This document shows positions 21,679 through 55,760 of a stretch of DNA of 64,000 bases, piece after piece. Made by a program: the position numbers and the translations under genes. This DNA is from Halorussus gelatinilyticus. GTDB lineage: Archaea; Halobacteriota; Halobacteria; Halobacteriales; Haladaptataceae. Under the pieces are notes generated by a model, which was given only the letters and a program-made list of their open reading frames with translations, ran no database searches and was not told the origin of the DNA. Where the stretch lies: NCBI RefSeq assembly GCF_023238445.1, contig NZ_CP096658.1, positions 3,224,001 to 3,288,000 on the forward strand, read 5' to 3'. Position 1 is the stretch's first letter, and the number at the start of each line of letters is the position of its first letter.

Positions 21679-21696
21679 TTTTAGGCCAACCTAAAA
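21679..21696. promoter_or_regulatory. DtxR/IdeR/SirR-type metal box on a start codon
   Basis: TTTTAGGCCAACCTAAAA: perfect 7-bp arms around CCAA. The TTAGG/CCTAA half-sites are those of iron- or manganese-dependent DtxR-family repressors, which haloarchaea use (Idr, SirR). The box ends on the A of ATG 21696 and lies just downstream of an AT-rich TATA candidate (AATTTACT, 21659-21666), so a bound repressor would cover the start of a leaderless transcript. Confidence 0.7.
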
Positions 21697-22622
21697 TGGT
21701 CGGCGGAACGCTACGGGACCTGCGAGAACGCATCGTGGACCGACACGACGAGGACGGTCGCTACTTCGTGAGCTGTGCCCGGACCGGCGAGCGTCCGGTT
21801 CCGGTCGCGGGCAAGCGATTCGCAACGCGTGAGACCGCGGCGCGGGCGGCGGAACTCGCCGCCGAGTACCGCGCGGAACTCCGGCGGTACGACCCGCGAC
21901 TCGCCCACTACGACCTCGTGGTCTCGGAAGAACCCGGCCCGTCGGGACCGGTGGACCCGGTTCCGGTCGTCGAGGAGTCCGGCGGTTCGTCGGCCGCCGA
22001 CTTCTGTCACGACGTGGCGGCCGCGGTGTTCGAGGCGCTCTCGGAACTCGGGGAGGAGGCGGTCGAACGCGCCGTCTTGGAGGCGTATCTCCACTCAGCC
22101 GAGTCCGTGACCGACCCCGACGAACTCTGTCTGGTCCTGCTCTCTACCGCCGCGAGCGAACTCGACGCCCGACTCGCTCCCGACCGACAGGGCGAGGTCC
22201 TCCGGGTCGCCGCGGACCGCCTCGGCGCTCGCTCCGAACGAACGCCGCGGGACGGGGACGACCCCGTGGCCGCGACGCTCTCGCGGTTCGACGGTCTCTC
22301 GCTGGTCGCGGACTACGCAGTCGTCCGGAACGCGGGCGACGAGAGTGCGCCGAGCGACGTGAGCACGGCGTCCGACGAGAGCGCGGCGTCCGACGACGAC
22401 GGCCGGTCGTGGACGGTCACGGTCGAGGAGTGGGCCTTCGACAGCGTGGACGGTCGGGTGCCGACGCTCCCGTTCGCGGTCGAACTGCTCCGACGACTGC
22501 CCGACGAGCGCATCGCGGTGTCGGACCTCCGGGCGGCGGGCGACGCGGGGTGGCGGTTCGTCGTCTCGACGGCCGCCCCGAGTGCGCGGGCGGTCAGCCT
22601 CGCCGCGCCGGAGAACGACTGA
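21696..22622 (+). CDS. haloarchaeal protein of unknown function, predicted metal-regulated
   Basis: 308 residues from ATG 21696 (an upstream ATG at 21666 would run through the operator). N-terminal 65 residues 'MVGGTLRDLRERIVDRHDEDGRYFV...RFATRETAARAAELAAEYRAELRRYDPRLAHYDLVV' form a compact alpha/beta module; a helical middle part 'DFCHDVAAAVFEALSELGEEAVERAVLEAYLHSAE' is followed by a Ser/Asp-rich linker and a C-terminal part with 'VPTLPFAVELLRRLPDERIAV'. No catalytic motif seen and no known function; it resembles haloarchaeal DUF7551-type proteins. The DtxR-like box on its start suggests iron- or manganese-dependent repression. Confidence 0.75.
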   Translation: MVGGTLRDLRERIVDRHDEDGRYFVSCARTGERPVPVAGKRFATRETAARAAELAAEYRAELRRYDPRLAHYDLVVSEEPGPSGPVDPVPVVEESGGSSAADFCHDVAAAVFEALSELGEEAVERAVLEAYLHSAESVTDPDELCLVLLSTAASELDARLAPDRQGEVLRVAADRLGARSERTPRDGDDPVAATLSRFDGLSLVADYAVVRNAGDESAPSDVSTASDESAASDDDGRSWTVTVEEWAFDSVDGRVPTLPFAVELLRRLPDERIAVSDLRAAGDAGWRFVVSTAAPSARAVSLAAPEND

Positions 22623-54112: not shown

Positions 54113-54814
54113 TCAGAACGGGAGCGCGGCGGTGAGCGCGCCGGCGATACTGCCGACGACGGTCTCCCAGACCGAGAAGCCCGTGAAGATGGACAGCACG
54201 GTGTCGAGACCGAAAAAGAGGAACAGCACCGCCCCGGCGTAGTGGGCCTTCCGCACGTCGAACTTGTGAGAGAAGGTGTGGAAGAAGAAGGCGTTGGCGA
54301 GGCTGACCGGGAGGATGGCCAGCATCTCGCCCGCCCAGATGGCCGACGTCGCACCGTACTGGGTCGCGAGACCGATGGTGACCAGTTGGGTCTTGTCGCC
54401 GAACTCGCCGGTGACCATCATCACGAAGATGGGGAGGAAGCCGCCGAAGACGGTGGGAACCTCGCGGCCGAACACCGACACGTCGAGGTCGCCGGTGCCC
54501 ATCATCCCCCCGTCGGTCTCGGCGAGCGTCTCGCCGCGCTCGGGGGCCGACCGCACGAGGAGCGCCGCGAAGGCGAGGAAGAGCGCCGCGGTGAACGCGT
54601 CGAGGTAGACCTGCGGGAGCGCGCCCTGTAGCGCGCTCCCGAACCAGATTTCGAGCGCGGTCCATCCGGCGAACGCGCTCCCGGCGGCCCCGACGACGAT
54701 CCACGGGTTGTACCGCGTCGAGAGACCGGCGATGATGAACTGGACCTTCTCGCCGGGAAGCACGGCCAGTTGCGCGGTGAACGCCACGACGACGATTTCG
54801 AGCCAGCCGGTCAT
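54113..54814 (-). CDS. Gdt1/TMEM165 (UPF0016) cation transporter
   Basis: 233 residues from ATG 54814. Two homologous three-helix halves: first 'LEIVVVAFTAQLAVLPGEKVQFIIAGLST' (E22 in P-G-E-K-V-Q), second 'LPIFVMMVTGEFGDKTQLVTIGLATQYG' with the canonical E137-x-G-D-K-T. Relatives transport Ca2+ and Mn2+ in exchange for protons. The first half lacks the usual G-D. It is translated from an ATG that overlaps (ATGA) the stop of a 23-codon upstream frame. An operator-like palindrome is 13-26 bases before that upstream ATG. Confidence 0.88.
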   Translation of the reverse strand: MTGWLEIVVVAFTAQLAVLPGEKVQFIIAGLSTRYNPWIVVGAAGSAFAGWTALEIWFGSALQGALPQVYLDAFTAALFLAFAALLVRSAPERGETLAETDGGMMGTGDLDVSVFGREVPTVFGGFLPIFVMMVTGEFGDKTQLVTIGLATQYGATSAIWAGEMLAILPVSLANAFFFHTFSHKFDVRKAHYAGAVLFLFFGLDTVLSIFTGFSVWETVVGSIAGALTAALPF

Positions 54815-54882
54815 CGAGCCGCCACCTCCGCGGTCTCGCGTAACCGAATCGCCCGCGACGCGTGGACGAAGAGAGAGAGCAT
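54811..54882 (-). CDS. possible upstream mini-ORF of the Gdt1 gene
   Basis: ATG 54882 begins a 23-codon frame (MLSLFVHASRAIRLRETAEV plus three residues) whose TGA overlaps the ATG of the Gdt1 gene. Its ATG is 25-33 bases downstream of a TATA-like TTTTAGTTT, so a leaderless transcript would start with this mini-ORF. Either a leader peptide coupling translation or a chance frame; a TTG at 54892 in the Gdt1 frame is an alternative start but gives a poor N-terminus. Confidence 0.4.
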   Translation of the reverse strand: MLSLFVHASRAIRLRETAEVAAR

Positions 54883-54894
54883 GGTTGGTCAAAA

Positions 54895-54908
54895 TTAGAT
54901 ACGTCTAA
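54895..54908. promoter_or_regulatory. metal-box-like operator of the Gdt1 gene
   Basis: TTAGATACGTCTAA: TTAGA/TCTAA arms with 4-base spacer. It has the same 5-4-5 architecture as the DtxR-type box at 21679-21696 (TTAGG-CCAA-CCTAA) and sits between a TATA candidate (about 54907-54915) and the mini-ORF start at 54882. Consistent with Mn- or Fe-dependent control of a Mn/Ca transporter. Confidence 0.5.
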
Positions 54909-55040
54909 ACTAAAATGGCTTTCTTTCTAATCGGGGGCTCGAAGCCGGCTTCGAGTCGTTGGGACTGTCGAAATCTACCGACTCGGGAGAGAAAAGCGAC
55001 GTGGCCGACTCGGAGGACGCGACCGAGTTCGGCTGATTCG

Positions 55041-55760
55041 CTACTGGTTCCGACTGGATTCGAGGTAGAGATGTCCGAGCGCGAGTCCGAACAGCGGGAG
55101 CAGGACCGCGGACAGTCCGGCGGAGACGACCCCGCCGACCAGCGTGTACTGGCCGAAGACGCTCGCCGCCAAGTTCGAAGCGCCGATAGAGGCGAAGTAG
55201 ACGAGACTGACACCGAATATCTTGAGGACGTTCCCGCCACCCGCCCGCCACCCGGCCTTCAGACTGGCGAGTGGACCCTTCCCGTCGATGACGCAGGCCG
55301 GGAACGACAGCAGGAGTCTGTGGAACAGGTAGACGCCCGGCAGGACGAACGCGAAGAGGCCGAGGACCGAGATAATCCACATCGGGATAGCCACGGCCAC
55401 GAGCGCCGGAACGCGCTTCGCGGCACCGCGGACGTGGTCGCCGAGCGGTCGCTCGCGGTTCGCCACGGCGTCCTCCGAACTGGTGTACGCGACGCCCCAG
55501 ACCACCGCGAGCGCGACGACGTACGCGAAGTACACCGGCCAGACCCAACCGGCGATCTCCGGAACCGCGTCGGGTGTGGGCCGCGAGATGCCGAAGAGCG
55601 CGACGACCGACAGCGACGCGACGGCGAGCGCGAAGCCGACGAGTTCGAGGCGGCCGGTCAGCGCCTCCCACGACCACCGGAGCGTGTCGCCGATACCGAG
55701 GGTCCGGACGTGGACGCTGTCGGTCGGTTCGACCGATTCGTGGTGTCGTTCTGTTCCCAT
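55041..55760 (-). CDS. multi-pass membrane protein of unknown function
   Basis: 239 residues. A polar N-terminus of about 25 residues, then 'GIGDTLRWSWEALTGRLELVGFALAVASLSVVALFG' and five or six more helices. The periodic 'HLRGAAKRVPALVAVAIPMWIISVLGLFAFVLPGVYLFHRLLLSFPACVIDGKGPLASLKAGWRAGGGNVLKIFGVSLVYFA' resembles the glycerophosphodiester-phosphodiesterase-associated membrane domain and haloarchaeal DUF7847-like proteins. Role not known. Monocistronic. Confidence 0.7.
   Translation of the reverse strand: MGTERHHESVEPTDSVHVRTLGIGDTLRWSWEALTGRLELVGFALAVASLSVVALFGISRPTPDAVPEIAGWVWPVYFAYVVALAVVWGVAYTSSEDAVANRERPLGDHVRGAAKRVPALVAVAIPMWIISVLGLFAFVLPGVYLFHRLLLSFPACVIDGKGPLASLKAGWRAGGGNVLKIFGVSLVYFASIGASNLAASVFGQYTLVGGVVSAGLSAVLLPLFGLALGHLYLESSRNQ

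Follow-up and report, generated by a model that had tools for sequence, protein, structure and literature searches.

Haloarchaeal gdt1 genes behind a putative leaderless landing-pad cistron that takes the place of a DtxR-type regulator gene

Some mycobacterial transcripts open with a leaderless ORF of 5 to 50 codons whose TGA stop overlaps the RTG start of the next gene; the linkage of these ORFs is conserved but their peptides are not, and delivery of ribosomes to the downstream gene was proposed as their role (Shell et al. 2015, PMC4633059). Ribosome delivery by leaderless ORFs has also been discussed more generally (PMC12548453), and a synthetic bicistronic design for Corynebacterium glutamicum combines a leaderless promoter, a short fore-cistron, an internal Shine-Dalgarno (SD) motif and a coupled gene (PMC10367133). 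Leaderless mRNAs make up 72% of the protein-coding transcripts of Haloferax (PMC4983044), in which SD motifs play no part in initiation at 5'-UTRs (PMC3986360). Overlapping gene pairs of the haloarchaeon Haloferax volcanii carry ATGA overlaps and internal SD motifs and are strictly coupled (Huber et al. 2019), with coupling seen for all nine closely linked pairs tested, most of them with ATGA overlaps (PMC6728339).

The bacterial members of the TMEM165/UPF0016 transporter family are controlled by an RNA aptamer, the yybP-ykoY Mn riboswitch. That a protein Mn regulator controls the UPF0016 genes of four halobacteria was already predicted in section 9 of a review (PMC7380456); the passage names ManS/ManR yet cites a comparative study of archaeal DtxR regulons (Leyn and Rodionov 2015); the part of our analysis that concerns transcriptional control thus extends an earlier prediction. 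SirR of Halobacterium was reported to be a Mn-dependent autorepressor (PMC3600143).

The gdt1 locus of Halorussus gelatinilyticus

The window analysed here is a 64,000-nucleotide stretch of the H. gelatinilyticus genome, which has one intact copy of gdt1. The gene lies on the reverse strand (54113-54814) and encodes a predicted Mn/Ca transporter of 233 amino acids of the GDT1/TMEM165 (UPF0016) family, as the first-pass annotation had proposed: the product matches PF01169 in two stretches, above the gathering score (99.5 bits against a cutoff of 27, E 1.3e-28). Immediately upstream on the same strand is a mini-ORF of 23 codons, MLSLFVHASRAIRLRETAEVAAR (54811-54882), a putative leaderless landing-pad cistron that starts with an ATG at 54882 and ends with a TGA at 54813-54811. 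This stop overlaps the gdt1 ATG at 54814 in the ATGA of 54811-54814, an overlap that had been pointed out from the window alone and whose arrangement proved to be conserved in at least eight families. An SD-like GGAGGTG (54823-54829) lies within the mini-ORF, 8 nt 5' of the gdt1 start.

Twelve nucleotides separate the mini-ORF ATG from the palindrome TTAGACGTATCTAA (54895-54908, reverse strand; forward-strand letters TTAGATACGTCTAA), a predicted operator of a DtxR/MntR-type regulator, so designated from its sequence and from the occurrence of the same box at regulator promoters. A TATA-like TTTT, which fits the haloarchaeal TTWT, follows upstream at 54912-54915 on the same strand, about 31 nt before the mini-ORF ATG. 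The next gene upstream (55041-55760) is also on the reverse strand and its end stops 125 nt short of the TATA element, so the box is shared with no divergent gene.

In the window the frame of gdt1 is itself free of stops as far as the box, and an in-frame TTG at 54892 could in principle give Gdt1 an N-terminal extension, making the mini-ORF an out-of-frame artefact. This reading is hardly credible, since none of the nine other Halorussus loci has an in-frame start, the frame is closed by a stop at position -60 in one locus (L004), and Gdt1 homology begins at the methionine of the ATGA.

Regulator operons and stand-alone gdt1 loci in haloarchaea

We compared 172 oriented haloarchaeal gdt1 loci. 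The regulator gene lies directly upstream of gdt1 in 100 of them, with a 4-nt stop/start overlap in 96 of these 100, and a regulator match is found somewhat further upstream in another two. Nearly all the regulator promoters carry the box (99/100 with up to three mismatches, 83/100 with up to one; 2.6% and 0.05%, respectively, in dinucleotide shuffles). The first-pass view that a protein-regulator box rather than a riboswitch stands between the TATA element and the start was borne out by this distribution and by a covariance search of the gdt1 leader against Rfam, which returned no match to the yybP-ykoY Mn riboswitch. A riboswitch was rejected on the grounds that the leader has neither an Rfam match of this class nor a conserved fold.

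The same box precedes gdt1 in 62 of the 70 loci without the regulator; the other eight stand-alone loci have no recognisable box. A mini-ORF of 5 to 44 codons, starting 3 to 27 nt after the box, ends at gdt1 in 60 of the 62 box-bearing stand-alone loci, and an exact 4- or 1-nt overlap with gdt1 is present in 49 of the 62; 11 of the 60 mini-ORFs end there without such an exact overlap. The peptide is not conserved, high GC content keeps frames open, and the gdt1 frame, too, is open upstream in most Halorussus loci, all of which would suit an incidental mini-ORF that results from the scarcity of stops in GC-rich DNA and the ATGA at the gdt1 start, with gdt1 initiating by itself on a leadered mRNA. 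We regard such an origin as improbable, because dinucleotide shuffles of the same leaders in which the gdt1 start was kept gave, over 300 shuffles, a mean of 14 mini-ORFs (maximum 23) against the 60 observed and a mean of 9.1 exact overlaps (maximum 16) against the 49. A strict rule that admits only the first start codon 6 to 18 nt after the box was satisfied by 54 of the 62 loci, versus a mean of 6.3 and a maximum of 16 in 500 shuffles, and the start codon stands at a fixed spacing from the box. With one locus per genus, the mini-ORF was present in 23 of 24 (5.7 in shuffles, maximum 12) and the exact overlap in 17 of 24 (3.4 in shuffles).

Apart from Halorussus and the named loci, 16 coded genera have mini-ORF loci, and at least eight families are represented, that of the window among them. 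The box and the mini-ORF are common to all of ten Halorussus genomes, with the mini-ORF ATG 68 nt before gdt1 (74 nt in one) and the stop overlapping the gdt1 start in all ten. In other Halorussus genomes the gene immediately preceding gdt1 is that of the regulator, and its stop overlaps the gdt1 start. In Halorussus G017 (L016, L018) two tandem GDT1-family genes follow the regulator, only about 30-38% identical to the gdt1 of the window.

Three of the boxless stand-alone loci (L096 and L112 of coded genus g20, and L145) carry, by eye, a short ORF with an ATGA overlap, exemplified by MRTIDRSTTGGNTT followed by a stop in L096, so a mini-ORF can outlive the operator. The gdt1 genes of L050, L097, L103 and L131 (coded genera g57 and g54; Natribaculum) have neither the box nor a clear mini-ORF.

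A tree of 70 gdt1 sequences implies at least four switches between the two forms and places the mini-ORF loci in several separate clusters; its deep support is weak, and both gain and loss would be compatible with it. Within Halorussus the gdt1 genes of the mini-ORF clade and those of the operon-type clade are not sisters and represent separate lineages, which gives no support to a simple internal deletion in this genus and makes transfer or replacement the likelier course. We also set aside the view of the mini-ORF as a literal remnant of the regulator ends: several mini-ORFs begin with MLS like the regulator, others do not.

The mini-ORF as a probable ribosome-delivery cistron

The distance from the box to the regulator start is 7 to 17 nt, and the same range holds for most mini-ORF starts, as opposed to 35 to 139 nt from the box to gdt1. 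The spacing is thus alike for regulator and mini-ORF and unlike that for gdt1, which indicates a promoter tuned to the first ORF. Pooling all loci shows a strong A/T preference at positions -7 to -4 upstream of the box, and given the haloarchaeal TATA consensus TTWT (PMC4983044) transcription is expected to start within a few nucleotides of the mini-ORF start. A transcript opening at the 23-codon frame, anticipated by the first-pass annotation, is accordingly what the promoter spacing would predict. The Halorussus mini-ORF starts 12 nt from the box, so a 5'-UTR of 4 to 5 nt rather than a strictly leaderless mRNA is expected in this genus.

SD-like 4-mers are depleted before the mini-ORF start (3/60; random positions have them in 16%). 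Before gdt1 they are enriched, both in mini-ORF loci (41/60) and in operons (86/100). Given the strict coupling of closely linked pairs in Haloferax and the failure of SD motifs to drive 5'-UTR initiation there, a gdt1 start that was shaped as that of the second gene of a coupled pair would need an upstream translated ORF, which we infer the mini-ORF to supply. In coded genera g6 and g18 (within L065-L107) none of 15 loci has an SD 4-mer before gdt1, versus 41 of 45 elsewhere, and the mini-ORF is kept. Reinitiation in these 15 loci must be SD-independent, and they offer a natural SD-free test case.

The substitution frequencies at the three codon positions are 0.51, 0.49 and 0.57 in the mini-ORF and 0.08, 0.08 and 0.29 in gdt1; on this pattern the mini-ORF evolves without coding constraint. 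Its start, frame and stop position persist, and GAGGTG is invariant in the ten Halorussus genomes. That the mini-ORF might encode a small functional protein, for instance a partner of Gdt1 or an MntS-like regulator, is suggested by its conserved position and by the existence of small proteins in Mn homeostasis, such as MntS of Escherichia coli (PMC4361602). Such a function is very improbable, given that no purifying selection on residues is seen even within one genus and that no sequence is common to different genera. A functional leader peptide was rejected likewise, as the substitution pattern is not of the coding type and no residue is conserved apart from the start and the residues that the SD motif encodes.

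The first-pass annotation had further proposed leader translation beside the protein repressor. In a metal-responsive leader of this sort, translation of the mini-ORF, through its peptide or an RNA fold, would sense Mn or Fe and tune translation of gdt1 in addition to the box. A short ORF before a metal transporter gene is in an attenuator-like position, and in bacteria the homologous genes have an RNA Mn switch (PMC7380456). This reading found no support in the comparison, since the peptide varies freely in sequence and in length (5 to 44 codons), no consensus RNA structure emerged (-1.78 kcal/mol, one covarying pair) and the fold z-scores were 0.19, 1.23 and -2.61 in three genomes; we consider a metal-responsive leader unlikely, if slightly less so than an incidental ORF. 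With sequence, length and fold not conserved and with start, frame, stop and usually the SD motif kept, the mini-ORF looks like a constitutive ribosome-delivery cistron, on which ribosomes most likely enter before passing to gdt1.

We consider it probable that in these loci the regulator gene is replaced by a leaderless landing-pad cistron from which ribosomes reach gdt1 by termination-reinitiation, with transcription under DtxR-type control. In the arrangement found in most haloarchaea, gdt1 is the second gene of the regulator operon, with a 4-nt overlap. In the stand-alone form gdt1 would be transcribed from the type of promoter that drives the DtxR/MntR-type regulator, namely a TATA element, a TTAGAC-N2-GTCTAA operator and a start codon 7 to 14 nt further on, with the regulator encoded elsewhere in the genome and a short ORF of arbitrary sequence in its place. 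The mRNA would begin at, or a few nucleotides from, the mini-ORF start, where ribosomes would initiate as on a leaderless transcript; after 23 codons they would reach the overlapping TGA, terminate there and reinitiate at the gdt1 ATG, aided, where present, by the GGAGG motif within the mini-ORF. The mini-ORF would then be a minimal cistron through which leaderless entry and translational coupling persist although the regulator gene is absent, and the regulator would act in trans at the box to control transcription of gdt1.

The regulator, its box and described systems

The whole stretch contains only two TTAG-N6-CTAA sites (0.06 expected; two reached in 1 of 100 shuffles), the gdt1 box and TTAGGCCAACCTAA at 21681-21694. 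The same pattern is not enriched across the genome (16 sites; the reversed control has 21), nor are near-boxes with two mismatches (36 versus 34). The loose palindrome count was therefore dropped as evidence, and the significance of the gdt1 box rests on its position and on its conservation across species, which is overwhelming. The match between the two boxes in the window, noted at first pass, holds for their geometry and fails for their half-sites, which are TTAGA/TCTAA in the gdt1 box and TTAGG/CCTAA in the other, and for the regulons to which they appear to belong, which are different.

Half of the 16 genomic sites are TTAGG-N4-CCTAA. Three of these lie 5' of substrate-binding protein genes with a Peripla_BP_2 domain, three 5' of two DUF7552 genes, one of which is the gene at 21696, and one just 5' of an ABC ATPase gene that is SufC-like by eye; they appear to form an iron-type class separate from that of the gdt1 box. 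TTAGGCCAACCTAA ends 1 nt before the DUF7552/DUF7551 gene (21696-22622, forward strand), and another DUF7552 gene, outside the window (L030/L031), has two TTAGG boxes before it; the TTAGG (iron-type) regulon may include these DUF7552/DUF7551 families of unknown function. TTAGA-N4-TCTAA, in turn, occurs at only two sites in the genome, before gdt1 and 13 nt before the ATG of a stand-alone DtxR-family regulator gene, which is also the location of the sole other near-perfect TTAGAC site.

This stand-alone DtxR/MntR-type regulator has 249 amino acids and the domains PF01325, PF02742 and PF04023 (DtxR HTH, metal-binding and FeoA). Its best NCBIfam model is a Mn-dependent MntR, with 224 bits, short of the equivalog cutoff of 350. 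Aligned to IdeR it has Asp at Met10, Asp at Cys102 and a retained Glu-His; we take Met10 and Cys102 of IdeR to be metal-ligand sites, and by this alignment the acidic ligand set would be like that of Mn-responsive regulators, with Mn the most likely metal. The regulator was found in 249 of the 252 genomes of the class sample, and no mini-ORF genome is among the three that lack it, so the mini-ORF genomes carry it elsewhere.

The box is in a repressing position, which does not obviously suit a metal-bound repressor of a Mn exporter. With Mn bound, such a repressor would shut the exporter off just when the cell has most use for it. Either metal binding makes the regulator leave the DNA, or haloarchaeal Gdt1 does not serve as a Mn exporter. 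The stand-alone regulator gene is followed by a gene for a putative 10TM heavy-metal exporter (PF11449, ArsP_2; L202:3441-5637, G000:C1 ~2466940-2469140), so the regulator seems paired with another possible Mn exporter. A weak near-box with two mismatches, TTTGATGCGTCTAA, precedes this exporter gene. It was not counted as a third box target, as two mismatches are at background level and the ATG after TTTGATGCGTCTAA opens no mini-ORF that terminates at the exporter start.

Haloarchaeal SirR/Idr/TroR regulators share with the regulator described here the DtxR HTH, metal-binding and FeoA domains and a palindromic box at their own and at transporter promoters; the TTAGG boxes at iron-type genes are a class separate from the box described here. 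No yybP-ykoY aptamer was found at the gdt1 leader, and for archaeal TMEM165 genes control by a protein at an operator is supported, as against the riboswitch of their bacterial relatives.

In the literature searched, which left out most subscription papers, we found no description of a coupled leaderless mini-ORF in archaea, and the kind known from mycobacteria is apparently undescribed there. The gdt1 mini-ORF has these features of that kind: it is a short ORF with its stop on the next start, and its architecture is conserved while its peptide is not. New here are the occurrence in archaea, how deeply the arrangement is conserved, and that a cistron of free sequence takes the position of a regulator gene behind an unchanged type of operator. 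There seems to be an even chance that it represents a general archaeal class of leaderless landing-pad cistrons, in which a mini-ORF is retained or created when an operon gene parts from its upstream partner, because haloarchaeal ribosomes initiate inefficiently at operon-internal starts; for gdt1 this would have happened repeatedly, with the mini-ORF as a functional stand-in for a whole regulator gene. The two forms of the locus amount to a natural experiment in archaeal translation, with the same gene and operator coupled to a full regulator ORF or to an arbitrary mini-ORF in at least eight families, and they allow a direct test of whether leaderless entry and termination-reinitiation are obligatory for haloarchaeal operon-type starts. 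They also suggest that short ORFs dropped by annotation pipelines can be essential cis elements.

The upstream partners in the overlapping pairs of Haloferax volcanii are protein genes, not mini-ORFs, and the bicistronic arrangement of Corynebacterium glutamicum is engineered and bacterial. The mycobacterial coupled ORFs, too, are bacterial; they precede many unrelated genes and were compared in two species, whereas the gdt1 mini-ORF belongs to one gene across eight archaeal families and stands in the place of a regulator gene whose operator has been kept.
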